From Desulfonatronospira sp. (lineage in GTDB: Bacteria; Desulfobacterota; Desulfovibrionia; Desulfovibrionales; Desulfonatronovibrionaceae): 10,608 nt of DNA. Where the stretch lies: the NCBI GenBank assembly GCA_003563255.1, contig PWSL01000031.1:1-10608 (forward strand), given 5' to 3'. Both the position numbers and the translations under genes were made by a program. The notes under the pieces are model-generated. The model was not told the DNA's origin. It saw only the letters and a list, made by a program, of their open reading frames with translations, and ran no database searches. This document shows positions 1 through 10,608 of this stretch, in pieces (the first letter of the stretch is position 1; each line of letters starts with the position of its first letter).

Positions 1-164
1 TTAGCACTACAGCGAAACTTATTTATTCACCTCCGGGGACTGGCTCTCCCCGCACTTATTTTTTCCAATAAAACCAAGATCATTTGTAATAAAAATAAGT
101 GCGGGGGTGCCTGTCCCCGATTTAGACAGGTTGAAAAGTTTTATAAGTTTCACTGTAGTGTTAG
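1..164 (-). mobile_element. MITE copy 1, complete, with TTAG target duplication
   Basis: A non-coding inverted-repeat element. TTAG (1-4) and TTAG (161-164) are direct repeats, as expected of a 4-bp target-site duplication. The element itself is 5-160. Its left terminal repeat CACTACAGCGAAACTTAT (5-22) matches the reverse complement of 143-160 with one mismatch. The 90-bp core (29-118) is a foldback with arms GGGGACAGGCACCCCCGCAC and GGGGACTGGCTCTCCCCGCA separated by an AT-rich loop. This copy is inverted relative to the other three. Its core is identical base for base to that of the copy at 8814-8976, which implies recent spread. It carries no ORF that could be a transposase, so it would need enzymes in trans. 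The left flank is outside the window. Confidence 0.85.
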
Positions 165-197
165 GGATTAGAACAAGAAAAAAACCTTGCCTGCATG

Positions 198-231
198 TTT
201 GTGGGGACAGACACCCCGGCACTTATTTTTT
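198..231 (+). repeat. Solitary REP-like half repeat (GGGGACAGACACCCC type)
   Basis: This stretch begins TTTGTGGGGACAG and continues with CACCCCGGCACTTATTTTTT. It resembles one arm of the MITE core, but with CCGGCAC in place of CCCCGCAC, and it has no terminal repeats around it. A close second copy lies at 9046-9079, differing mainly by a one-base gap and one or two substitutions. It sits 14 bp beyond the stop codon of the large glycosyltransferase, so in that transcript it lies in the 3' untranslated region. It lacks a clear stem followed by a T-run, so I do not call it a terminator. Confidence 0.6.
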
Positions 232-244
232 GGGATGTCTCCTG

Positions 245-2740
245 TCAGAAACAGCCTTTCAGTCTAGCCTCGTGCCTGGAGTAGCCAAACCTGTCTTCAA
301 CATAGTGCAGGGCTTTTTCCACTTGTTGATCGTATTGCTGATCATTATTCATAAAATACTCCATGACTGATTCAACTTCCTCTGGCCGGGCATATATGGC
401 TGCCTCCTGAAAAAGCACTTCATATTCGGAGGGTATGATTACCGGGACTCCAGTTGCCATAGCCTCAATAATTACCCTTCCAAAGGACTCAACAAGGTCT
501 GGATGGGTATAGTAGACGAAAAAGTCCAGGTTGGAAAGAAATGCCTGAGGGTGAACAGCCCCGAATTCAAGAACATTCCAGTTTGAGGGCAGGCGGCCAA
601 GCATTTTTTGCGGGGCCTGGGCTCCGCCCAGCACATGAACTTCATATCTATCTGACTCCGGGTAGATGGTCAACAAATCCCCAGGGTTATCCGGCCACTT
701 GTAAATATCATCCCTGGAATGTCTGCCGATAAGTATTCTGTCGCCTCGGACCGGCTTTGAAGCCCTTTTCCATCTGGAAACATCAATGATATTGTGCCAG
801 TCGTTACTGTCAAGGTTTATCAGGTTGACTTCAGGGGCATGATGCTCATGCAAAGCTCTGCGAATTAAGGGGCCGATGGGATGCCACACTCCTGTGCATT
901 TGAAGTACCTGGACAGATTGTCTGAACAACTCTTAAAACTATAGTAAAATTTGGGGTTTGCTCCATAATGTTTCACAGGGGTTTGATTAATAATCACCCT
1001 GACATTATCAGTCTGTATATCTGGAACGTACTTTTGCAGATACTGGAGCACTGGCGGATGCCTGATTATCAGTACATCGCAACTGACTTTTTCTCCAAAG
1101 GTAATAAAACTGACTGCGTCGCCATTAAGCATACGCCTGATTCGATAATCAATTTTTCTGGAAGGAACCAGGTCATACCGGTTCATTTGAACCAGACCTG
1201 TACGCATGCCAGCACTTGTCTGGGCTTTAATTTCCTCAATATTGGAAACAGTGGTACCTCCTGGTAGCCGGAACTCAGAAGCAATGATTACGTCAAAATG
1301 CTTTCTGTTTTTTAGAGAAGGCTCTTTCGGCAGCATGGGCGCCGGCACTGGAAAGGGCCTGACCTGCATCGTGTTATTGATAAAGAGCTGGGGTGCATGT
1401 TCATGAAAATACTCAAAACTTTCCTTATATTCTTTTCTTACGCCCATGAAAAACCCGGGGTATCCAAAGTGCCTGCTTCCAGTAAGCGAATCCGGGGATT
1501 GCCTGAGAAAAGATAATGGTCCAGTTTTTAAATGCTGCACTGAAGCTTCTCCAAATATCTTCTTCAGCCTCGCTGTGAACTCACCATCCGCTCCAAAACG
1601 GACACTGTCCCAGAATCCAGCTTTTTCCAGAACAGGTTCCCGTCGAAACATCAGTGAAGACATGTTGACCTGGATATAACGGCCAGGATTCCCCCTGCGA
1701 AAAAAATGTAAATCACTGAAGGCCCTGGAAAGCTGAGATGTATTGGCAATTTTAGATGGATTATCCAGGAGATGGCTTGCCTGAATTTCCAGTTTCTGTG
1801 GATGAGACCAGTCGTCGGAATCATGGCAGGTAACCAGTTCACCTCCGGCTACCGCAAGTGCAATGTTTCTAGCCACGTATGGTCCCTGGTTGGCATCAGC
1901 CCTGATCAGCTTAATTCTGGGATCATTATTTACATATTGCTTTACAACCTCGGATGTGTTGTCTGTACTGCAGTCGTCAACGACAATTATTTCCAGATTG
2001 CTCCATGTTTGCGACAACAAGGATTCAAGAGCGGTTGCAACTGTGTTTTCTGCATTATAAGCTGGAATGATTACACTTATGGTGCATGTATCCGGTGCTG
2101 GGACCAAGGCATTGGAATTCCCTGTCAGGGAATCAAAATAAGACCTGGAAAGAGAGGGTGTGAAAGATATGCCTGACAGCTTTGACAGCTCAAAGGCTTT
2201 GTTGATCCAGTGTACCTTTTCGGAAAGATGCTGCTCAAGGTTTGCTGCTGCCAGAAAAAGGTCGGCATCGGGGCCCATTTTCAATGCCTTCTGTAGTACG
2301 TGTCTTCCTGTTTCAGGGTCCTCAAGCAGATAATGGCACTCAGCCTCAAGAATGGCTCCCTGACGCAATCTTTCCCTGTCTCTGGTCCCTGACAGGGCCT
2401 GTTTCAGAAAATTCAGGCATTCAAGGGCACTGTCACGAGTGTATTGGTTGGAATACCACAGGGCAAGTTCCCAGGATGCCGATTTTTTTAAAATGTTGTC
2501 GCTGATGAGGGCCTTCAGGTCGGCAATGGTTTTTTCCTCAAAGCCCAGGCTCTGGATACGGATCCTGTATGCGTGTAGAATTTTTGAACCAGGGCTCTGA
2601 ACCATATTTTCGACATTAATAAATCGGCTCAGAAGCAGAAAAAAAGGACGCAGAACAGGCCAGGCCCTTGAATTTCTCAGTCCGGATGCCCATTCAAATG
2701 TTCTTTCAACACGGTTTTTCAGAAATCTGCTATTTATCAT
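245..2740 (-). CDS. Bifunctional glycosyltransferase (GT2 domain fused to GT-B/GT4 domain)
   Basis: A large soluble protein that probably adds two sugars in succession to a growing surface glycan at the cytoplasmic face. Residue numbers count from the upstream GTG. Residues about 60-215 are a helical N-terminal region without a recognisable catalytic motif, perhaps TPR-like. Residues 234-345 form a GT-A family 2 domain: the start SVIIPAYNAENTV, then IIVVDDCSTDNT, and the metal-binding motif HDSDDW (320-325). Residues about 495-840 form a GT-B fold domain: DVIIASEFRLPGGTT, GRILIGRHSR-like strand and linker, and an E-x7-E motif (E765 and E773 in ESFGRVIIEAMATGVPV), typical of GT4. Both active sites look intact. 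I chose ATG 2740; an in-frame GTG at 2782 would add 14 residues but lies inside a dispersed repeat and has no Shine-Dalgarno. ATG 2740 has no clear one either. Donor and acceptor cannot be read from the sequence. Confidence 0.9.
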   Translation of the reverse strand: MINSRFLKNRVERTFEWASGLRNSRAWPVLRPFFLLLSRFINVENMVQSPGSKILHAYRIRIQSLGFEEKTIADLKALISDNILKKSASWELALWYSNQYTRDSALECLNFLKQALSGTRDRERLRQGAILEAECHYLLEDPETGRHVLQKALKMGPDADLFLAAANLEQHLSEKVHWINKAFELSKLSGISFTPSLSRSYFDSLTGNSNALVPAPDTCTISVIIPAYNAENTVATALESLLSQTWSNLEIIVVDDCSTDNTSEVVKQYVNNDPRIKLIRADANQGPYVARNIALAVAGGELVTCHDSDDWSHPQKLEIQASHLLDNPSKIANTSQLSRAFSDLHFFRRGNPGRYIQVNMSSLMFRREPVLEKAGFWDSVRFGADGEFTARLKKIFGEASVQHLKTGPLSFLRQSPDSLTGSRHFGYPGFFMGVRKEYKESFEYFHEHAPQLFINNTMQVRPFPVPAPMLPKEPSLKNRKHFDVIIASEFRLPGGTTVSNIEEIKAQTSAGMRTGLVQMNRYDLVPSRKIDYRIRRMLNGDAVSFITFGEKVSCDVLIIRHPPVLQYLQKYVPDIQTDNVRVIINQTPVKHYGANPKFYYSFKSCSDNLSRYFKCTGVWHPIGPLIRRALHEHHAPEVNLINLDSNDWHNIIDVSRWKRASKPVRGDRILIGRHSRDDIYKWPDNPGDLLTIYPESDRYEVHVLGGAQAPQKMLGRLPSNWNVLEFGAVHPQAFLSNLDFFVYYTHPDLVESFGRVIIEAMATGVPVIIPSEYEVLFQEAAIYARPEEVESVMEYFMNNDQQYDQQVEKALHYVEDRFGYSRHEARLKGCF

Positions 2741-2772
2741 TCTAACGCCGGCTTTGCCCGCAACCCAAAAAC

Positions 2773-2820
2773 TTATTCTCACGCAAAGGCGCTAAGGTCG
2801 CCAAGAAAGACAGGATAATG
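2773..2820 (-). repeat. Dispersed intergenic repeat (GCAAAGGCGCTAAGG type)
   Basis: The plus strand reads CACGCAAAGGCGCTAAGG followed by TCGCCAAGAAAGACAGGAT. I recognise this as a short non-coding repeat scattered through many bacterial genomes. It has a weak GGCG/CGCC stem at its centre and TTAT/ATAAT-like ends. It reaches into the annotated 5' end of the large glycosyltransferase if the GTG at 2782 is used, which argues for the internal ATG. No function can be assigned. Confidence 0.5.
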
Positions 2821-2825
2821 TTTTT

Positions 2826-2886
2826 CATTCACCGGTCACGCCTGAGGCGTGATTGCCGGCAATCGCCACCGAGGATTCCGTGAATG
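2826..2886. repeat. Compound inverted repeat (three nested stems)
   Basis: Outer arms CATTCACCGG (2826-2835) and CCGTGAATG (2878-2886) pair with one bulged base. Inside are a 7-bp hairpin, TCACGCC-TGA-GGCGTGA (2836-2852), and a perfect 14-bp palindrome, GATTGCCGGCAATC (2851-2864), sharing two bases. As RNA it would fold into a branched cruciform between the stop of the membrane protein and the start of the large glycosyltransferase. There is no T-tract directly after it on the minus strand, so a Rho-independent terminator is not supported. It may protect or process the intercistronic mRNA, or be a repeat family member. Confidence 0.55.
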
Positions 2887-2898
2887 GTTACCCGGCGA

Positions 2899-4632
2899 TT
2901 ATGGACTTTTAAGCACAGGATTTGAGAGTACCTTGTTAATTGTTGTAAGTGCCGCCTTATAATTACCCTTGCTGATTTCTTTTTCCAGTGTGCGGCAGTA
3001 GTGGACCAGGTCAAGCCGGTCCAGGTCCAGGTCTTTCGGGGTGTCAGTCCTGTTTTCTTTAACAACTTCAAGGAGTTGGTCAAGCCTTTTTTGGTCAAAG
3101 GGCATGACAGCGCCCAATGGTTCCAGAGTCCATCTGCCCCAGGTCATGACCAGGACCTCACCAGCTTCAGTCTGTACCGTGTTTTTTACAGTCAGGTCCG
3201 GGTTGTGAATAAAATACGGCACTGACTTGAGCATACATTCAGTCCCGGGGAGGTATTCCAGAAAAAGGTTCAGATCGCTTTTTTCTTCCGGAGTGTCCAC
3301 AGCTATCCATGTCCTGCTTACAAATTCGCGGCTTAGGATTTCATGCAGGGACTTGTGTGATGTCCGGAAGGCTTTCACCAGTTCAGGTGAAGGCTTAATG
3401 GAATAATAGTATTCGAGCAGATTATCATGCAGACTTTTCCATTTATTTCCAGGAACAGGCTCACCCAGACCATATTCAAGGATCTGACAGACAAACGGTT
3501 CCCGGGTGTACCTGGTGACCAGGGCCGGTGCTTTTAACTCATTGCGGGATATCCGGGTAAAGAGATAGTCTTCGTTCTCAAACAGTTGAGCAGATTGCGT
3601 AGTAAAAACCTGCTTTTGAAATAATGCCTCCTGGTGGGAATCCTGTTTGCCTGTTTTTATCATAAACATGTACATGCCGGGAATGGTCGGGTCCATCCAG
3701 TGTACATCCAGGCTCACTCCGGGAGGCATAAGCAGGCTCATTTCCGCCTGAACCATGCTCTCCCGGGCTGACTTATGAAAAACATCCCGCACTGCAAGCT
3801 TATCCTTGCCTTCAGGGGATTCCATCTGTATTCCTGGAAATATCAGGGCATCAATTTTGTGCTTGTTTCTGCAAAGATTAACTGCTTCTTTGGTTGAGCT
3901 TACAAAGAAGTTCAAAGACCTCCTGAGCAGCAGGATGGACAGGATGGCAATGATGATGTTGCCGCCGTCACTGGTGAGAAACGGGGCCAGGATTATGAAA
4001 AATCCTGCCAGAAAAGCAAGGGAAGTGATGATTTTGAGGTAGTTGCCGGTTTTGTCCTGTATATAAAGCTTCAACTTGTCTCGTCTTACGTCACAACCTG
4101 ACAGGGCCCAGGCACTGAAAAAATAATACCCGGCCATCAGGAACAGCATGAAGATAAACAGCCAGAAATTTAGAACCATGAGCACCAGGAAAGCAGCACT
4201 CAAAAAAAGAAGGCTTGCAGATATTTCACAAAACGAAGCGTAATACCCCTGAATTGTTTCTTCCTGGTTTTTGAGAAGGGTCAGGGCGTTGGCCCGGTAA
4301 AGAATTTCCTTGCCCGCATCCTGTGACAGGCGGTTGACCATGGCTTCCAGTAAAAGGGTTACTAAATAAAAAGTCACTGCAGCCAGGCTCAGACCCAGGA
4401 GCCAGATGGATTTATCAGCAGGGTCAACGAATGGAAAGTATCGGGGCACTCCGGGTGACCCTGCCAGCAATATCACCTTCAAGGGCAGGAGCAAAGACAG
4501 TATCCTGGTCATGGTGGCGGTTGCCTCGGCAACGACAACGCCGGCGGTGGTCAAGGGGCGTAACTGAAAAAAAGTCCGCATAACCCGGGCAAACCACGCG
4601 GCAAATGCAGAGCTTTCCTGTATAAGGTTCAT
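2899..4632 (-). CDS. Membrane protein: ABC-exporter-like transmembrane domain with degenerate APH-like C-terminal domain
   Basis: I do not recognise a named family. Residues about 27-245 contain roughly six membrane segments, and the N-terminal part (LSLLLPLKVILL near residue 46) resembles the start of ABC exporter transmembrane domains. No Walker A, signature LSGGQ or Walker B follows, so the usual ATPase is missing. Residues about 270-577 are soluble. They contain HNPDLTVKN (476-484), which resembles the HxDxxxxN catalytic loop of aminoglycoside-phosphotransferase-like kinases: D479 and N484 have the right spacing, while H476 is one residue too far. The later metal-binding Asp expected in an IDW-like strand is replaced (VLVMTWGRW, 493-501). 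It is thus probably an inactive or altered kinase fold tethered to the membrane. The start ATG 4632 follows GGAAAA on the minus strand. The gene precedes the large glycosyltransferase on the same strand with about 160 bp between, so they may be cotranscribed. It could assist glycan export or sense a ligand; both are guesses. Confidence 0.8.
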   Translation of the reverse strand: MNLIQESSAFAAWFARVMRTFFQLRPLTTAGVVVAEATATMTRILSLLLPLKVILLAGSPGVPRYFPFVDPADKSIWLLGLSLAAVTFYLVTLLLEAMVNRLSQDAGKEILYRANALTLLKNQEETIQGYYASFCEISASLLFLSAAFLVLMVLNFWLFIFMLFLMAGYYFFSAWALSGCDVRRDKLKLYIQDKTGNYLKIITSLAFLAGFFIILAPFLTSDGGNIIIAILSILLLRRSLNFFVSSTKEAVNLCRNKHKIDALIFPGIQMESPEGKDKLAVRDVFHKSARESMVQAEMSLLMPPGVSLDVHWMDPTIPGMYMFMIKTGKQDSHQEALFQKQVFTTQSAQLFENEDYLFTRISRNELKAPALVTRYTREPFVCQILEYGLGEPVPGNKWKSLHDNLLEYYYSIKPSPELVKAFRTSHKSLHEILSREFVSRTWIAVDTPEEKSDLNLFLEYLPGTECMLKSVPYFIHNPDLTVKNTVQTEAGEVLVMTWGRWTLEPLGAVMPFDQKRLDQLLEVVKENRTDTPKDLDLDRLDLVHYCRTLEKEISKGNYKAALTTINKVLSNPVLKSP

Positions 4633-4776
4633 TTTTCCAGGTTCCAGGGAACAGGTTCGTGGTTAAAGGTGTAAGTCCAACTCGGGCTATGCCCGAAAAC
4701 CAACAAAAAGCTTTTCCTGACAGGATTTACAGGATCAACCACGCCATAGGCGCGTGGCAGACATAGATTAAAAGTT
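4633..4776. other. Intergenic spacer with small hairpins and a dispersed repeat
   Basis: The gap between the sulfotransferase end and the membrane protein start holds several small structures. There is a CGGGC-TAT-GCCCG hairpin (4683-4695) and an imperfect CCACGCC/GGCGCGTGG hairpin (4739-4757). Between them is CTGACAGGATTTACAGGATC (4717-4736), a dispersed repeat type seen in many bacterial intergenic regions. Near the membrane gene is a GTTCC/GGAAC-rich stretch similar in style to 9020-9037. I see no convincing sigma-70 promoter or T-tailed terminator on the minus strand. Confidence 0.5.
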
Positions 4777-4808
4777 ACCAACATGTTTGTTTGAAATTTG
4801 TGCTAAGC
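4777..4808 (-). repeat. 32-bp inverted repeat, copy A
   Basis: This 32-bp stretch, beginning ACCAACATGTTTGTTTGAAA on the plus strand, is the exact reverse complement of 8977-9008. On the minus strand it starts two bases after the sulfotransferase stop codon. Its outer context there (TTAG, GCGC, TTAGCACAAATTTC) resembles that of copy B (TTAG, GC, TTAGCACAAATTTC). The match fades within about 15 bp at the other end. The pair brackets 4.2 kb carrying four genes and two MITEs. Confidence 0.85.
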
Positions 4809-4810
4809 GC

Positions 4811-5587
4811 CTAACCATAATCACGGCGCAGAGATTCAAAATCATGCAGGGGGCGAGGAAATACTTTAAGGAAGAGCTTCTGTCTTCCGGCAAGCATTTC
4901 CTTTTTCAGGCAGCCATGCTTGGCCGAGGTATTGACAGGTCCTTGCTCAGCCCTCTTGACCGCGGCCCTGATATCTTTTAATTTCAGAGGATCGAATATC
5001 TTTTCATGCAGATAACTGCTCCCTTGAGCCTTGTAGTCATCCAGAAAAAAAAGCAGCACTCTGTCAGGTCTTTTTTCCTTCATGAGACGGATCCGGCGCA
5101 GAGACAGGATATATCTCAGTGCTACATAGGCAATGCCCCTGCCGGGCCAGCGGGCCTGAACTGACAGCAGGTGGTCCTCAAAGTGCCGGATACAGCAGAT
5201 ATATATGGGCTGCGCCGGATCAAAAAAGGCATTGTAAAAATCAAAGTATTTTTCATGGTATGGTGTTTTGTACCCAAAATATTTACAGTCTTCACCAGCC
5301 TCCCGCCTTTTGCCCTTTTGCAGATTGGCCCAGACGGCAAACATGAAATCCTTACTGGAAAGGCTGAATTTATCAGGCAGTTCTTTTGCAGGGCCGGCGG
5401 TCACATCCATTCGCTGGAATCTTTTCACCGTGCGTATAACCCGGTCAATGATAAAGACAGGTATCTCCCCCTGTACAGTCACACCAGGCACCTCATTGAG
5501 GACGTTGGTGATAAACCTTGTTCCAGAGCGGGGTGGACCGACTATTATCAAAGGGGTGGCTTTATCTGCAGATGGATAAGCAGGCAA
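4811..5587 (-). CDS. PAPS-dependent sulfotransferase family protein
   Basis: Predicted to transfer a sulfuryl group from 3'-phosphoadenosine 5'-phosphosulfate to a sugar hydroxyl, presumably on the glycan made by the neighbouring glycosyltransferases. The 5'-phosphosulfate loop is clear: IIVGPPRSGTRFI at residues 14-26, the usual GxPRSGTT form. The 3'-phosphate site is represented by IYICCIRHFEDHLLSVQARW (128-147), with R134 and S142 in the expected Rx7S arrangement. The length, 258 residues, is ordinary for the superfamily. There is no membrane anchor or signal peptide, so it is cytoplasmic. The start is a TTG at 5587 preceded by GGAG eight bases upstream; an in-frame TAA lies 39 bases before the start and there is no upstream ATG. 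The stop TAG forms part of a TTAG next to repeat copy A, so the extreme C-terminus may have been reset by that repeat. It is divergent from the GT2 gene, with a MITE between. Confidence 0.85.
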   Translation of the reverse strand: MPAYPSADKATPLIIVGPPRSGTRFITNVLNEVPGVTVQGEIPVFIIDRVIRTVKRFQRMDVTAGPAKELPDKFSLSSKDFMFAVWANLQKGKRREAGEDCKYFGYKTPYHEKYFDFYNAFFDPAQPIYICCIRHFEDHLLSVQARWPGRGIAYVALRYILSLRRIRLMKEKRPDRVLLFFLDDYKAQGSSYLHEKIFDPLKLKDIRAAVKRAEQGPVNTSAKHGCLKKEMLAGRQKLFLKVFPRPLHDFESLRRDYG

Positions 5588-5641
5588 CTGAACTTCTCCG
5601 GCCGGAACCCGGGCCTGGCCTTGAATTTACTTGACGTGTCC

Positions 5642-5816
5642 CTAACACTACAGCGAAACTTATAAAATATGTATCTGTTTAGCGCTTTTAAAGAAAGCAG
5701 GGGACAGGCACCCCCGCACTTATTTTTATTAAAAATGATCTTGGTATTATTGGAAAAAACAAGTGCGGGGAGAGCCAGTCCCCGGAGGTCAATCATAAGT
5801 TTCGCTGTAGTGCTAA
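5642..5816 (+). mobile_element. MITE copy 2, complete, with CTAA target duplication
   Basis: CTAA (5642-5645) and CTAA (5813-5816) are direct repeats flanking an element at 5646-5812 (167 bp) whose ends are inverted repeats of CACTACAGCGAAACTTAT. The core differs from the other copies by about three substitutions, making it the most diverged copy. Its variable segment between the left terminal repeat and the core is the longest and holds a small GCGCTTT-TAAAGAAAGC inverted repeat not found in the others. The element fills most of the 318-bp divergent spacer between the sulfotransferase and the GT2 gene, so any promoter for either gene must lie inside it or in the short flanks. Confidence 0.85.
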
Positions 5817-5852
5817 CAAGAAAAACTATATCAACAACTCCTGAAGGTCAAC

Positions 5853-5921
5853 ATGAGCATACGTGAACAAAAAACCTGGTCTAAAAACATGGCGGAAGCT
5901 GACTCATGCTGGTCTCCATAA
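5853..5921 (+). CDS. Possible 22-codon leader ORF overlapping the GT2 start
   Basis: ATG 5853 follows GAAGG at a good ribosome-binding distance (GAAGGTCAACATG). It opens a 22-residue frame, beginning MSIREQKTWSKN, that ends at TAA 5919-5921. The stop lies 13-15 bases inside the GT2 gene, which begins at ATG 5906 in another frame. This arrangement would permit translational coupling. The peptide resembles nothing I know, and it may simply be untranslated leader or the remnant of a displaced gene. Confidence 0.25.
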   Translation: MSIREQKTWSKNMAEADSCWSP

Positions 5922-6784
5922 TCATCCCCGTTTTCCGCAACAATAAAGGCCTTGATTCCTGCCTGAAAGCACTCGAGGTTCAGACGTGGCCCCGGGATCA
6001 GTTCGAGATCCTGGTAGTGAACAACGACCCTGAAAAGGAGATTGATGTCCAGGCGGATGCCGGCAATCTGCACTTTTTAAGGGAAATGACTCCTGGATCA
6101 TATGCTGCAAGAAACAAAGGAATTAATGAGGCCAGGGGCGAAATCACTGGATTTTGTGATTCGGACTGCATCCCGTCCAGGGACTGGATTGAAAAGGCAG
6201 TAAGTTTTTTTAAAAAAAATCCTGACTGCACGCGTCTGGCCGGGAAAATTGAGCTCTTTACCAAAAACCCTGAAAAACCTGCAACCGCCGAGATTTACGA
6301 GCAGATCTTCGCCTTCAGGCAAAAAGACTACGCCATCAAAGGAGCAGCCGCCACGGCCAATATGTTTGCATACCGCTCTGTCTTTGCAGACGCCGGCCTG
6401 TTCCGCCAGGATCTTATGTCCGGCGGCGATCTGGAATGGGGACGCAGGGCGCAGAAGGCCGGACATGCCATCGGATTTTCCCCTGAGGTTGTGGTGAAGC
6501 ACCCGGCCAGAAAAAGCCTTCAGGAGCTTATCCTGAAATCCAGAAGGGTTGTAAGCGGCTATATTGTTCTTCATGATGCCCGTTTCAGGACAAATCCCGG
6601 CAGGGCGGTACTGCACGCCCTGATCATGCTCAAGCCTCCTCTAGGGTCTGCACGCATGATTTTTGCCCGCAGGGACCTGACTCTTTGGCGCAGGACGGCT
6701 GTTTACGGCCTTGAATACCTGTTAAAACTGGTGCAGCTTGGCGAATTTATCCGGCTGCAGGCTGGAGGTTCTCCAAGGAGATAG
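5906..6784 (+). CDS. Family 2 glycosyltransferase (GT-A fold)
   Basis: A cytoplasmic or membrane-associated transferase that probably adds one sugar to a lipid-linked glycan. The N-terminus MLVSIIIPVFRNNKGL (1-16) is the nucleotide-sugar binding start of GT2, followed by ILVVNNDP (35-42). The arginine-containing GSYAARNKGINEARGE segment (64-79) is typical of the family. The metal-binding motif is CDSDC (84-88), and GGDLEWGRR (173-181) carries the acidic catalytic-base region. The C-terminus (about 230-292) is basic and amphipathic without clear spanning segments, suggesting peripheral membrane contact. The length of 292 residues is usual. ATG 5906 has GGCGGAAG upstream. It converges on the minus-strand GT-B gene with only 33 bp between and no visible terminator, so the transcripts probably overlap. 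Confidence 0.88.
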   Translation: MLVSIIIPVFRNNKGLDSCLKALEVQTWPRDQFEILVVNNDPEKEIDVQADAGNLHFLREMTPGSYAARNKGINEARGEITGFCDSDCIPSRDWIEKAVSFFKKNPDCTRLAGKIELFTKNPEKPATAEIYEQIFAFRQKDYAIKGAAATANMFAYRSVFADAGLFRQDLMSGGDLEWGRRAQKAGHAIGFSPEVVVKHPARKSLQELILKSRRVVSGYIVLHDARFRTNPGRAVLHALIMLKPPLGSARMIFARRDLTLWRRTAVYGLEYLLKLVQLGEFIRLQAGGSPRR

Positions 6785-6817
6785 GCAAGCGTTTACCCAT
6801 GAAATAGAAGAAGGCAT

Positions 6818-8005
6818 TTACAGTCCAAGTTCATGCTGCAGTATCCTGAATGAAGAGCTCCAGTCATGCCGGGCGGCAAAATCCAGATACGGCTGCTGGT
6901 CATGTTTCCTGGATGCAGCCTTTGAAGCCAGAGACACGAAATCGTGCACATTGTCATAAATCCAGGCCGGGCTGTTCATGCTCTCTACTTCCGCCCACCT
7001 GGCGCAGATGACCGGCAGACCGGCCGCCATGTATTCCAGAAGCTTCAATGGCCTTATGCCCTGGATAAGCTCCAGGCGATACTTGATATCAAAAGGAATC
7101 ATCCCGGCAACAGCCGAGTGCATAAGCCAGGGCATTTCTCCGTGGGGAACAGGACCAGGAAAGTATATATTGCCCGGCAGCCGGCCCACGGCAGGATCTG
7201 GTCTGCCAGGCCCGGCAAAAACAAAGGATACACCGGACAAGGCTGCAGCGGTCTCTTGAATCAGTCTCCAGTCCAGGCGGGAATCAAGAATTCCTGTGTA
7301 AAGAACAACAGGATCAGGAACCTTGGAAAGCACAGGGTGACGGCCCCCGGAACTGCCCTGAGACCTGAAAAACCAGTAATCCACCCCATTGGCTACCAGG
7401 GCTGTCTTTTGGGGAGACAGGCTCTCGACATACTCTTTCAAGCCCCGGGCGGAGTATATTGTCAGATCAGCCCTGGACGCGAGCTTTTGGGCCATCCATC
7501 TGCAGTGACCGGTCCAGCCGGGAAAATGTTCATGTATGTCCATAACCCTGAAAACACATCTGTCATAATCCAGTTGGTCCAGGAGGAAATGGTAGCTCAG
7601 GTTGTCGATATACAGAAGATCCACCTGATCAAGCCCGCTGTTTTTAATAATAGTCTGAAGGGTGGGAAAAACACTTTTGTGCCAGTTGGCAACGACCTGG
7701 CGGCTTCTCAAAAGAGGCATGCCGTCAGGGGCCAGTATGGAAAAAGGGATGTAGGAACTTATGTTGTTATTATGAATAAGCGGGCTTTGAAGTGAGGCCT
7801 TAAACCTGGCGGGTACTTCCGCGGAGTTGATCTTTAGCAGGTGCAAAGGAGTTACCGGCGCGGCAAAATAATGTACCTCAAAGCTGTTTACCGAGAACTG
7901 CCTGGCCAGATGCTGGCTGCCCAGCTGCAGACAGGACCAGTAAGGCTGGATGCAGGCCATGAGGACTTTTCTGGGTTTACTTTTCAAGACGTTTTGTTCC
8001 CTCAA
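6818..8005 (-). CDS. GT-B glycosyltransferase (group 1 / GT4-like, TuaH-type)
   Basis: A GT-B fold transferase. N-terminal Rossmann half: KVLMACIQPYW (13-23) with YIDNLSYHF and VMDIHEHFPGW in the acceptor side. The link ALVANGVDYWFF (202-213) is the usual NGVD before the C-terminal half. The C-terminal donor half has VVLYTGILDSRLDW (233-246), FVFAGPGRPD (261-270) and PLKLLEYMAAGLPVI (319-333), where K321 and E324 match nucleotide-binding positions. Similarity in layout is to enzymes such as TuaH of teichuronic acid synthesis, but the sugar is not predictable. I use the TTG at 8005 because it lies 4 bp after the methyltransferase stop, fitting cotranscription and translational coupling. An ATG at 7960 is the alternative, but it would cut the first beta strand. 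Confidence 0.85.
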   Translation of the reverse strand: MREQNVLKSKPRKVLMACIQPYWSCLQLGSQHLARQFSVNSFEVHYFAAPVTPLHLLKINSAEVPARFKASLQSPLIHNNNISSYIPFSILAPDGMPLLRSRQVVANWHKSVFPTLQTIIKNSGLDQVDLLYIDNLSYHFLLDQLDYDRCVFRVMDIHEHFPGWTGHCRWMAQKLASRADLTIYSARGLKEYVESLSPQKTALVANGVDYWFFRSQGSSGGRHPVLSKVPDPVVLYTGILDSRLDWRLIQETAAALSGVSFVFAGPGRPDPAVGRLPGNIYFPGPVPHGEMPWLMHSAVAGMIPFDIKYRLELIQGIRPLKLLEYMAAGLPVICARWAEVESMNSPAWIYDNVHDFVSLASKAASRKHDQQPYLDFAARHDWSSSFRILQHELGL

Positions 8006-8009
8006 TATA

Positions 8010-8801
8010 CTATCTGTTTCCGCTGCTTGCTTTTTTTCTCTTCACGCTGCCGGGCTTTGTAAATATAAGGTTGACAGAGCACGGCAGGAATGTTTGCAGA
8101 AAAGGGATCAGCCCCAGGAAGTAAAAGTATACCGTAGCCAGAGGATCCCTGTTTTGCAGGCTGGGATGGTAGTCCACATGCAGGTCCAGCCCAGCCTGAC
8201 GGGATAATCTGGCGACTTCTGAAACAATAAGCACGTCTTCAGGGACGTTACCTCGTTTGCGGTTCATTCTACGGCGAACAAGCCTGTAGAATAACTTCGG
8301 CGCTGCAGGTTCGTAGAAATAAATCCCTTTTCCCCCAGGCTTGAGTACACGGAATAATTCCTCGAGGGTCCTTTTATGGGCCAGGAAGTGATGGGCCGAG
8401 GCGAAGCAGAATACCAGGTCCAGGGAAGCATCGGCCTCTTTTATTTCATAACTTTTGCAGGCGTAGGCATTGTCCAGTGAAACCTGAAAAACTCTTTCCC
8501 ATTTTGGAAGAGACATGACGGCATATTCGCTGATATCCGTTGCCGTCACATGCGCCCGTGGAAACAGCTTTTTGTAAACGCAGGCCCCCCAGCCCTGACC
8601 GGCACCAAGTTCAAGTACTTTGCCTGTTTTAGGAATAATTTCCTTGTGCCTCTTGAGGCCCTCTAAGAAAACCAGGGCCTCCCTGGACTTTTTGAGCAAG
8701 TTTAATACCGAATCAGCTTCAGGGGATTCATGCCTGGAATCCCGCCAGAACTCTACTTCGAGCTTTTGCTTTGAAGCAATCTCTGTATCATTATACTGCA
8801 T
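8010..8801 (-). CDS. Class I SAM-dependent methyltransferase
   Basis: Probably methylates a sugar of the glycan or a precursor. The Rossmann methyltransferase motifs are in order: motif I VLELGAGQGWGA (62-73); the acidic residue D89 at the end of strand 2 (HVTATDIS); LDLVFCFASAHHF (127-139), the post-strand-4 motif; and FRVLKPGGKGIYF (150-162), typical of the Methyltransf_11/25 group. Residues about 219-247 are hydrophobic and the C-terminus is basic. ATG 8801 is preceded by TAAGGA, a strong Shine-Dalgarno, about 9 bases upstream; its first three bases belong to the TTAG target duplication of MITE copy 3, so the element abuts the ribosome-binding site. The GT-B gene follows after 4 bp in the same apparent operon. 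An N- rather than O-methyltransferase role cannot be excluded. Confidence 0.85.
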   Translation of the reverse strand: MQYNDTEIASKQKLEVEFWRDSRHESPEADSVLNLLKKSREALVFLEGLKRHKEIIPKTGKVLELGAGQGWGACVYKKLFPRAHVTATDISEYAVMSLPKWERVFQVSLDNAYACKSYEIKEADASLDLVFCFASAHHFLAHKRTLEELFRVLKPGGKGIYFYEPAAPKLFYRLVRRRMNRKRGNVPEDVLIVSEVARLSRQAGLDLHVDYHPSLQNRDPLATVYFYFLGLIPFLQTFLPCSVNLIFTKPGSVKRKKASSGNR

Positions 8802-8813
8802 CTGCCTGTTTCC

Positions 8814-8976
8814 TTAGCACTACAGCGAAACTTATAAAATATAATTACGTATCTCGATTGGGGACAGGCACCCCCGCACTTATTTTTATTACAAATGATC
8901 TTGGTTTTATTGGAAAAAATAAGTGCGGGGAGAGCCAGTCCCCGGAGGTCAGTCATAAGTTTCGCTGTAGTGTTAG
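8814..8976 (+). mobile_element. MITE copy 3, complete, with TTAG target duplication
   Basis: TTAG (8814-8817) and TTAG (8973-8976) flank an element at 8818-8972 (155 bp) with terminal inverted repeats CACTACAGCGAAACTTAT at both ends, matching perfectly. The core (8860-8949) is identical over 90 bp to copy 1. Its variable segment (ATATAATTACGTATCTCGAT) is different from those of the other copies. It occupies the left half of the 394-bp divergent spacer between the methyltransferase and the GT4 gene, directly at the methyltransferase ribosome-binding site and directly against the 32-bp repeat copy B. Confidence 0.88.
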
Positions 8977-9008
8977 GCTTAGCACAAATTTCAAACAAAC
9001 ATGTTGGT
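8977..9008 (+). repeat. 32-bp inverted repeat, copy B
   Basis: Exact reverse complement of 4777-4808, starting GCTTAGCACAAATTTCAAAC. It follows the right target duplication of MITE copy 3 without a gap. The inferred pre-insertion sequence TTAG-GCTTAGCAC parallels the unoccupied TTAG-GCGCTTAGCAC at copy A, so copy A looks like an empty counterpart of this site. Confidence 0.85.
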
Positions 9009-9019
9009 CGTTAAAATCG

Positions 9020-9037
9020 GTTCCTGGTTCTTCGTTC
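9020..9037 (+). repeat. 18-bp direct repeat GTTCCTGGTTCTTCGTTC, copy 1
   Basis: GTTCCTGGTTCTTCGTTC occurs here and again at 10369-10386 in the same orientation, so the two copies flank the GT4 gene. Here it forms a weak hairpin, with GTTCC at the start pairing with GGAAC at 9040-9044. Sequences of this style are common dispersed intergenic repeats; no function is known to me. Confidence 0.6.
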
Positions 9038-9045
9038 ATGGAACG

Positions 9046-9079
9046 TTTGTGGGGACAGCACCCCGGCACATATTTTTTT
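9046..9079 (+). repeat. Solitary REP-like half repeat (GGGGACAGCACCCC type)
   Basis: TTTGTGGGGACAGCACCCC followed by GGCACATATTTTTTT matches the unit at 198-231 apart from a one-base gap and one or two substitutions. It is a single arm without the terminal repeats or the second arm of the MITE. It lies in the upstream region of the GT4 gene. Confidence 0.6.
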
Positions 9080-9157
9080 GAACAAAAAACAAATTAGAAG
9101 AGTATTCAGTCTATCTCTGAACGGCTTCAAATTCAAGGCCGTAATTTTCTTCAATCC

Positions 9158-9185
9158 TTGACAGAGCAGCCGGCTAATTCATAAA
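9158..9185 (+). promoter_or_regulatory. Possible sigma-70 promoter for the GT4 gene
   Basis: TTGACA (9158-9163) is a perfect -35 box, followed after 16 bases by CATAAA (9180-9185), a four-of-six match to TATAAT. The predicted transcription start, near 9192, would leave only about four bases before ATG 9196. That fits the absence of any Shine-Dalgarno before the ATG, so the message could be nearly leaderless. The -10 box is weak and this could be chance. Confidence 0.35.
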
Positions 9186-9195
9186 AGCTACACTC

Positions 9196-10281
9196 ATGTT
9201 GAATGTCCTTGTTGTATCCCAGTATATTGAGCCGCATACAGGCGGGGCTGAGCGCTGCATGCTTGAAGTATGTTCCCGGCTGAAAAACCGTGGAATCAAT
9301 ATCGGTCATCTAAGCGCTGTGGGGGGTAATGAAAAAATGATCTCCCCGCCGCTCAGGTTTTTCAGCGGGGGATTTCACCCTTTTTGGCCGGGGCAGGTAG
9401 ACAGAGTTCTGCGAAAGTTACGCCCGGACATAATCTTCGCACACTTTACCGTTCCGGGAATTGTCGATATTGCCATCAGGCGGGCTGAAAAAATGAACAT
9501 CCCCGTATGCCTGGCTTACCACAGCGATATCACAGGACCCGAACTGCACAGAAAGTTGCTGGGCAATGTTTATTACCGGATTATTGGCATGCGAACCCTT
9601 GAACTGGCAGGCAGGATCATTGTAAGCTCACCTGAATACCGGTCATCATCCCCATGGCTTGCAGCACTGCACAGGCAATTCGACTATGTCATGCCCGGCG
9701 TGGACCCGGTCATGGCCAAGGGCAGGCCTTCACCCTCCTCTCCTTATCTTTTTTTTGCTGGCAAGACGGATTTGAAAAGTAAAGGCTTCGATATTCTTTA
9801 CAGGGCCTGGATGAGCATAAAAAAGGAATTCCCCTGTCTTGAGCTGGTGGCTGCAGGAACACCTTCCAGACAAGGTGCTTATCCCGGAGTACGGTTTACG
9901 GGCAGGGTGGACTCCAGGCAGGCGATGGCGGACCTTTACACATCCGCCCAGGTGACTGTATTACCCAGCACCAGCAATGCCGAGTCATACGGCATGGTCC
10001 TGGCTGAATCCCTGGTAGCCGGGACCCCTGTGGTGGGCTCGGATATCGGGGGGATCCCGGCACTGGTGCGTGACGGGGTCAACGGCTGCCTGGCTTCTCC
10101 GGGCAATGTGCAATCTCTGGCCAGGGCCCTGGCAAAAACATTACACCACCAGGACCGCCTGCGGGCAAACATCCTGGCAGAAAGGGAGGCTTACCTGCGT
10201 CTTTTCAGCTGGGACAATACAACAGACCGGATATTGCAGTCTCTGTCTGCTTGTGCTGGAAGACCTGTGAACACCAAGTAA
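9196..10281 (+). CDS. GT4 family glycosyltransferase (GT-B fold)
   Basis: A retaining GT-B transferase that probably acts in surface glycan assembly. N-terminal domain: LNVLVVSQYIEPHTGGAERC, with the G-G-A-E-R acceptor loop at 16-20; IIFAHFTVPG (79-88); and AYHSDITG (107-114), the common YHSD signature. C-terminal donor domain: YLFFAGKTDLKSKGFDIL (184-201), whose G189 and K194/K196 correspond to the phosphate-contacting region; the E-x7-E motif (E263 and E271) in ESYGMVLAESLVAGTPVV; then GSDIGGIPALVRDGVNG (281-297). The length of 361 residues is normal, with no truncation. ATG 9196 is chosen because the canonical first strand begins at residue 2; no Shine-Dalgarno is seen. It stands alone on the plus strand, between repeats on both sides. 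Confidence 0.92.
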   Translation: MLNVLVVSQYIEPHTGGAERCMLEVCSRLKNRGINIGHLSAVGGNEKMISPPLRFFSGGFHPFWPGQVDRVLRKLRPDIIFAHFTVPGIVDIAIRRAEKMNIPVCLAYHSDITGPELHRKLLGNVYYRIIGMRTLELAGRIIVSSPEYRSSSPWLAALHRQFDYVMPGVDPVMAKGRPSPSSPYLFFAGKTDLKSKGFDILYRAWMSIKKEFPCLELVAAGTPSRQGAYPGVRFTGRVDSRQAMADLYTSAQVTVLPSTSNAESYGMVLAESLVAGTPVVGSDIGGIPALVRDGVNGCLASPGNVQSLARALAKTLHHQDRLRANILAEREAYLRLFSWDNTTDRILQSLSACAGRPVNTK

Positions 10282-10310
10282 TCGTAACCATTCAGGGGGC
10301 AGATACCGGC

Positions 10311-10340
10311 CAGGGGACAGTCCCCGCGACACTTTTCCTG
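10311..10340 (+). repeat. REP-like palindrome GGGGACAGTCCCC
   Basis: GGGGACAGTCCCC (10313-10325) is a perfect inverted repeat with a one-base centre, followed by GCGACACTTTTCCTGCAC, which resembles the GCACTTATTTT of the other repeats. It lies 31 bp after the GT4 stop codon. The stem has no adjacent long T-tract, so a Rho-independent terminator is only possible. The rest of the spacer to 10465, apart from the 18-bp repeat, shows nothing I recognise. Confidence 0.5.
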
Positions 10341-10368
10341 CACAAATATAAAATCTTGAGAGTTCAAA

Positions 10369-10386
10369 GTTCCTGGTTCTTCGTTC
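10369..10386 (+). repeat. 18-bp direct repeat GTTCCTGGTTCTTCGTTC, copy 2
   Basis: Identical to 9020-9037. Together the two copies flank the GT4 gene and its upstream region (1.35 kb apart). Confidence 0.6.
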
Positions 10387-10465
10387 CTGGTTGAAAGAAA
10401 TAAAGTCAATAAATTTGGAGAGATATCTGGTCTGGTCCGAAAAACATATTGATCTGCCAAAAATA

Positions 10466-10608
10466 CTAACACTACAGCGAAACTTATAAAACTTTTCAAC
10501 CTGTCTAAATTGGGGACAGGCACCACCGCACTTATTTTTTATTACAAATGATCTTGGTTTTATTGGAAAAAATAAGTGCGGGGAGAGCCAGTCCCCGGAG
10601 GTTAATAA
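10466..10608 (+). mobile_element. MITE copy 4, right end cut by the window
   Basis: CTAA (10466-10469), then the terminal repeat CACTACAGCGAAACTTAT (10470-10487), a variable segment, and the foldback core through CCCCGGAGGT. The window stops before the right terminal repeat. The core has one substitution and one extra T compared with copies 1 and 3. Its variable segment (AAAACTTTTCAACCTGTC then TAAAT) is identical to that of copy 1, so copies 1 and 4 form a subfamily, arranged as an inverted pair at the two edges of the window. Confidence 0.8.

Follow-up and report, generated by a model that had tools for sequence, protein, structure and literature searches.

A family of small repeats in Desulfonatronospira with IS701-type ends, 4-bp target duplications and a REP-like interior

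A family of short repeats was identified in the draft genome of Desulfonatronospira sp. (G000; 3.52 Mb, 532 contigs), in the following called the host. The window, i.e., the whole stretch of 10,608 nucleotides which was analyzed, is one entire contig of this genome (G000:C7:1-10608) and contains four copies. These repeats are very probably non-autonomous miniature inverted-repeat transposable elements (MITEs) of the IS701 type, which are moved by a DDE transposase, duplicate four bases of an NTAN target and carry an interior resembling repetitive extragenic palindromic (REP) sequences as a passenger. The copies in the window are:

1..164, minus strand: MITE copy 1, element at 5-160, flanks TTAG/TTAG, right end with 1 mismatch
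5642..5816, plus strand: MITE copy 2, element at 5646-5812 (167 bp), flanks CTAA/CTAA
8814..8976, plus strand: MITE copy 3, element at 8818-8972 (155 bp), flanks TTAG/TTAG, long hairpin
10466..10608, plus strand: MITE copy 4, element from 10470 to the end, left flank CTAA, right end lost at the contig end

The copies have terminal inverted repeats and contain no transposase gene. The four related copies with shared 18-bp inverted ends which an earlier note on this DNA had described are real, as the window holds seven matches to the end CACTACAGCGAAACTTAT at up to one mismatch, six of them exact, compared to none in 200 dinucleotide shuffles. The 4-bp direct repeats reported outside the three complete copies (TTAG, CTAA, and TTAG) were also found; copy 1 begins at the first base of the contig, so that its left TTAG is the contig end. 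A search of the host genome for further copies, as suggested in the earlier note, yielded 200 exact matches to CACTACAGCGAAACTTAT (98 forward and 102 reverse), and no match to the reversed pattern.

The 4-bp duplication was analyzed in 57 complete host copies, which originate from the stretches surrounding 100 of the 200 ends (those listed first) and from some loci of a YTAR list and thus represent a part of the genome, and in 19 complete copies of a second species (G006). It is exact in 36 of the 57 host copies (shuffled partners: mean 6.1, maximum 14) and in 15 of the 19 G006 copies (mean 3.7, maximum 9). Duplication lengths of 2, 3, and 5-8 bp showed no clear excess over the shuffles. In host copies with TA on both sides the two 4-mers are identical in 35 of 49 cases, the shuffled mean being 6.5. 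The target had been proposed to be YTAR, which fits about half of the duplications (19 of 36 in the host and 8 of 15 in G006), whereas NTAN fits 35 and 15, respectively. When the YTAR-filtered loci were left out, 27 of 44 copies were duplicated, 26 of them with NTAN and 11 with YTAR. The target is NTAN, not YTAR. In the host, 81 ends fit YTAR combined with the end pattern (T also allowed at one position), compared to the 200 exact ends.

Empty sites in related strains, also suggested in the earlier note, were searched with the joined flanks of two sites in seven genomes. The spacer between hypF and uvrA (genes assigned by eye) is occupied in the host and in G006, where it reads TTAA-143 bp-TTAA, and is continuous in G002, a genome of the host's genus, with a single TTAA and 410 of 436 bases identical (94% over 436 bp). 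For the second site, between rsmH and ftsL (also assigned by eye), no continuous match over the junction was found in any relative among the seven genomes. In addition, 56 host sites and 20 G006 sites were compared with the retrieved stretches for continuous flanks. Besides the hypF-uvrA site, this revealed two G006 sites (L075 and L123) at which the host sequence is different, but no clean empty site is apparent. Continuous flanks at the L113, L136, and L138 sites, with about 80-83% identity, were read as insertions into other repeats, L136 and L138 after further inspection by eye, and were not counted as empty sites. The earlier note had also considered whether TTAG/CTAA is part of a longer sequence conserved on both sides. 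This is true for four copies, which lie within the TTAG of an end of a second MITE family, type C (GTATCTGTTTAG|CGCTTT; flanks with up to 2 mismatches), and still have TTAG on both sides. The stretches examined hold 72 intact distinct type C ends at up to 2 mismatches.

The same tips were found on full-size insertion sequences (IS). Relatives at E <= 1e-40 were detected in 26 of 395 genomes searched in the host's phylum. Of the 30 loci fetched, three have YACTACAGCG tips on both sides together with an exact duplication: L226 (2286 bp, TTAG/TTAG), L228 (2295 bp, CTAT/CTAT), and L252 (2298 bp, TTAG/TTAG). The right tip of L228, TACTACAGCGAAACTTAT, is identical to the MITE end in 17 of 18 bases. 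L226 and L228 encode PF13546 and an N-terminal DruA domain, and the transposase of L252 aligns with both. Tips like YCCTACAACG occur at L231, L234, L236, and L237, with an exact duplication only in L237. A contig edge in G104 shows a right tip after an IS701-like C-terminus; this fragment matched 10 of 97 genomes of its class and led to L179 and L189. In L189, a reading frame of 644 aa encodes DruA and DDE_5 domains within a 2251-bp element with YACTACAGCGAAA tips, and the transposase, which is related to the L226 and L228 proteins, is assigned to IS701 by NCBIfam with 281.5 bits. Furthermore, the viral contig L287 carries a 1482-bp element with TACTACAGCGAAC tips and GTAG/GTAG flanks. Its transposase of 421 aa is a relative by tblastn at 42% identity and has no room for DruA, so DruA is not needed for the tip. 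The IS701/DDE assignment guessed in the earlier note is thus supported by full-size elements which share these tips and are flanked by NTAN duplications (L226, L228, L252, and L287). No relative of the L228 protein was found among the PDB sequences.

A domain whose Pfam name refers to DruA, a defence protein of Druantia, is thus part of the transposase in several of the full-size elements carrying these tips. DruA (PF14236) was seen fused to IS701 and ISAs1 transposases, or as a separate gene adjoining IS66 transposases (L031, L189, L202, L203, L226, and L228). The separate kind has six near-identical matches in G006; the IS66 neighbour was scanned for L203 (G006) and L202 (host). A PADLOC scan of four DruA-bearing proteins gave no matches, and a literature text search covering few subscription journals found nothing naming both DruA and a transposase. 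In L158 and L189, a similar small overlapping frame (MPQAKRL...) lies after the transposase stop codon and before the right tip; it may represent a C-terminal part that is frameshifted or coupled.

The earlier note proposed a search of the host genome for a full-length IS with the same ends. None was found by PF13546 or PF01609, and the full-size elements sharing the tips come from elsewhere. End pairs 500-4000 bp apart with identical outer 4-mers were searched in L001-L150, and the single one (L138) consists of two neighbouring MITEs. The IS701 loci of nearer relatives (L086-L090) have no convincing ends, with a weak GACTACAGCAAAG upstream in L087. A tblastn search of plasmids with the query protein P0001 yielded 676 records, none of which reached 80% query coverage. 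The earlier note had named an IS5-group transposase as an alternative source of mobility. YTAR targets are known for some IS5-group elements, and a 4-bp duplication with central TA, about half of which fits YTAR, would agree with such an enzyme. However, the other half does not fit, the same tips sit on IS701-type elements, and none of five PF01609 loci in the host has these ends nearby, in adjoining sequence covered to at most ~1.5 kb or to the contig end, with a part of the IS5-group models searched. Mobilization by an IS5-group transposase is therefore extremely improbable.

Several observations weigh against an IS701-type origin of the family. A PF13546 profile search gave no matches in the host and in G006, and the matches of P0001 in both genomes are confined to the DruA part. 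No autonomous IS701 partner was found in the host genome, a draft of 532 contigs in which a copy may be missed. Many host contigs begin or stop at a MITE copy, which makes the joins there less sure. Among the fetched IS701 loci, the remaining 23 of 30 have no such tip pair. Six full-size IS carry the YACTACAGCG tip on both sides and four of these show an exact duplication, while L189 (CTAC/ATAG) and L193 (TTAT/CTAT) do not; beyond these six, some loci have the tip on one side only. The left and right IS tips diverge past the first 10 bases. An empty-site match was obtained at just one of the two sites tested. Finally, 21 of the 57 host copies lack an exact duplication. Since copies with mixed ends of types A and B are duplicated in 0 of 4 cases, compared to 32 of 43 for copies with type A at both ends (and 4 of 7 for those with type B at both), at least some non-duplicated copies seem to be recombinants between copies. 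This explains the missing duplications in part, as the mixtures account for just 4 of the 21; assembly breaks may be the cause in others.

The IS701-type reading links this small and very abundant repeat with one specific class of transposases through its ends, its duplication, one orthologous empty site, and full-size IS of the parent type with the same tips and duplications. The proposed mechanism is that an IS701-family DDE transposase would recognize the YACTACAGCGAAA tips, move the element of ~140-160 bp and insert it at NTAN with a 4-bp stagger, by which four bases would be duplicated. The interior would be a passenger that does not derive from the transposase gene; it is an inverted repeat of REP-like kind, GGGGACAGGCAC...GAGCCAGTCCCC, whose inner stem varies. 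Since the searches of the host draft genome yielded no transposase of this type, we can only infer that one, now absent or unassembled, acted in trans in this lineage. The cut-and-paste chemistry is likewise inferred.

The 18-bp end was found in 5 of the 101 genomes searched, the host included: G006 has 51 matches, and G002, G010, and G016 have one each, the single end of G002 being located at C39:4386-4403. When species genomes were scanned for the end, at least 10 stretches were obtained, 4 of those listed originating from metagenome-assembled genomes (MAGs) of Syntrophomonadaceae. The MITEs in these four MAGs have the same tips around a core formed by a different REP-like repeat, and 7 of 12 copies with both ends show an exact 4-bp duplication by eye. 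The L153 copy of this set has an unrelated interior, yet ends and duplication are kept. Copies of the Desulfonatronospira kind were also seen on two contigs (L076 and L083) from sediment MAGs with the titles Actinomycetota and Thermoplasmata, for which mis-binned contigs are the simplest guess. A pattern scan of viral contigs gave one match (L286), a lone end without a clear partner.

The interior of the elements was analyzed for its structure. Copy 3 folds into a single long hairpin; its folding energy as DNA is -43.7 kcal/mol, with a z value of -10.4. Of the 76 copies, 53 contain GGGGACAGGCAC...GAGCCAGTCCCC; these were the letters searched, so the two A-A mismatches are there by construction. 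The inner stem varies by copy, being of the CCCCGCACTTATTTTT or the CTTTTGCCG kind, and pairs in most, while in five copies the inner arms are mismatched by eye (CCCCCAAACC on one side) and pair poorly. The following REP-like units were located in the window:

8860..8943, plus strand: hairpin core of copy 3, REP-like, GGGGACAGGCAC...GAGCCAGTCCCC (84 bp); cores of this kind also occur inside type C elements
193..230, plus strand: solitary REP-like unit GCATGTTTGTGGGGACAGACACCCCGGCAC... without MITE ends, sharing GCATGTTTGTGG with the 5' side of a REP-associated tyrosine transposase (RAYT) gene (L039)
9041..9077, plus strand: second solitary REP-like unit
10312..10340, plus strand: weaker REP-like unit, GGGGACAGTCCCC...

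In 302,809 bases, 171 core units are located near a MITE end and 38 are without one; by eye, many of these 38 belong to type C elements. Units close to the end of a stretch were excluded from the counts. Type C elements have the ends GTATCTGTTTAGCGCTTT and were found in 27 copies in the stretches examined (L013, L048, L101, L113, L138, and others). Their duplication comprises 8 bp; it is exact in 7 of 27 copies and agrees in at least 7 of 8 bases in 15 of 27 (shuffled mean 0.6). The cores of 14 type C elements are identical to the best A/B copy to 0.67-0.96, five of them to 0.95-0.96 over ~80 bp, compared to only 0.33-0.59 for the 25 bases outside the core. One hairpin core therefore occurs in two MITE families that differ in their duplications, which connects REP-type repeats with DDE transposons in a way that can be tested.

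This interior bears on the statement of the earlier note that the family is not the product of a REP/RAYT process. According to such a process, the repeats would be REP units or bacterial interspersed mosaic elements (BIMEs) which a RAYT (Y1 HUH) transposase has spread, and its target or cleavage site would include the flanking 4-mers. The core is indeed REP-like and hairpin-forming, the 38 units mentioned occur without a MITE end, and a RAYT gene (L039:864-2101) has two direct copies of CACTACAGCGACACTTTG, one on each side, with type B tips on both sides in the same orientation. A GCATGTTTGTGG unit lies on its 5' side, and one half of a type B MITE was recognized there by eye. However, RAYT-moved REPs and BIMEs are not known to leave a target duplication, nor is HUH transposition known to produce one by staggered cuts. 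Here, variable 4-mers match across the same copy far above the shuffles and the empty site has one copy of them, which argues for a staggered-cut duplication, and L153 keeps both ends and duplication around another interior. A REP/RAYT origin of the whole element is thus very improbable. The earlier statement holds for the ends, which behave DDE-like, but it is too sharp in view of the interior, since this is a hairpin of REP-like kind and a related motif adjoins a RAYT gene. REP-like material is carried inside a DDE-type element.

Two systems may also have acted together, an IS701-type transposase on the ends and a RAYT on single REP units in the core. The solitary units without MITE ends share a motif with the RAYT flank, and the same core lies within elements bearing other ends. 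However, the exact motif was found at just one of the four Y1 transposase loci of the host genome (of the other three, one has a match with two mismatches and two have none), and recombination between elements accounts for the core sharing equally well. We consider this combination unlikely, albeit conceivable. With somewhat less doubt, it is tentatively suggested that at least two unrelated transposons, one of IS701 type with a 4-bp and another with an 8-bp duplication, have taken up the REP-like hairpin between their ends as a passenger cassette, and that a different REP-like cassette lies between the same IS701-type tips in another phylum. If true, REP-type repeats would spread via borrowed DDE transposase ends as well as by RAYTs.

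Between the MITE copies, at 245-10281, the window appears by eye to encode a surface polysaccharide cluster of glycosyltransferase, sulfotransferase, and methyltransferase genes. A perfect 32-bp inverted repeat pair with the palindrome ACCAACATGTTGGT is located at 4777-4808 and 8977-9008, apparently another dispersed repeat, part of which is also present in L044. An Rfam scan of the window and a search of it with a gapped pattern gave no matches.

Compared to known systems, the closest is the IS701 family (NCBIfam NF033540; PF13546), full-size members of which were found here with YACTACAGCG tips and 4-bp duplications. The MITE differs from it as it has no transposase, and the matching L226 and L228 (L252 by alignment) carry an N-terminal DruA. 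In the available part of "IS4 family goes genomic" (PMC2266710), 4-bp direct repeats are described for IS701. The end consensus given there (---YACT-Y--YR) does not match the MITE tips in register, and the paper states that not all of the family is covered by it. In the accessible parts of the literature examined, which included few subscription journals, no IS701-derived MITE was found to be described, and a literature search with the end sequence gave no mobile-element title among the matches listed. As far as the accessible text of PMC11578231 describes it, MITEPye1 is likewise short, with ends shared with an IS, direct repeats, and a long RNA hairpin; it is tied to IS1182 and present in 1-3 copies per chromosome, in contrast to the 200 exact ends and IS701-type tips found here. 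REP/BIME sequences with their RAYTs are similar in the GGGGAC...GTCCCC hairpin pair inside the element, the solitary units, and the four Y1 loci in the genome, but ends and duplication here are those of a DDE element. For REP dimers, insertion within longer palindromes is mentioned for a few species in the part of PMC3733652 consulted. The type C elements of the same genome share a core which is up to 96% identical over ~80 bp, and differ in their ends (GTATCTGTTTAGCGCTTT) and their 8-bp duplication. MITEs of bacterial IS are a known kind of element, and the less ordinary part is the core common to families with a 4-bp and an 8-bp duplication.

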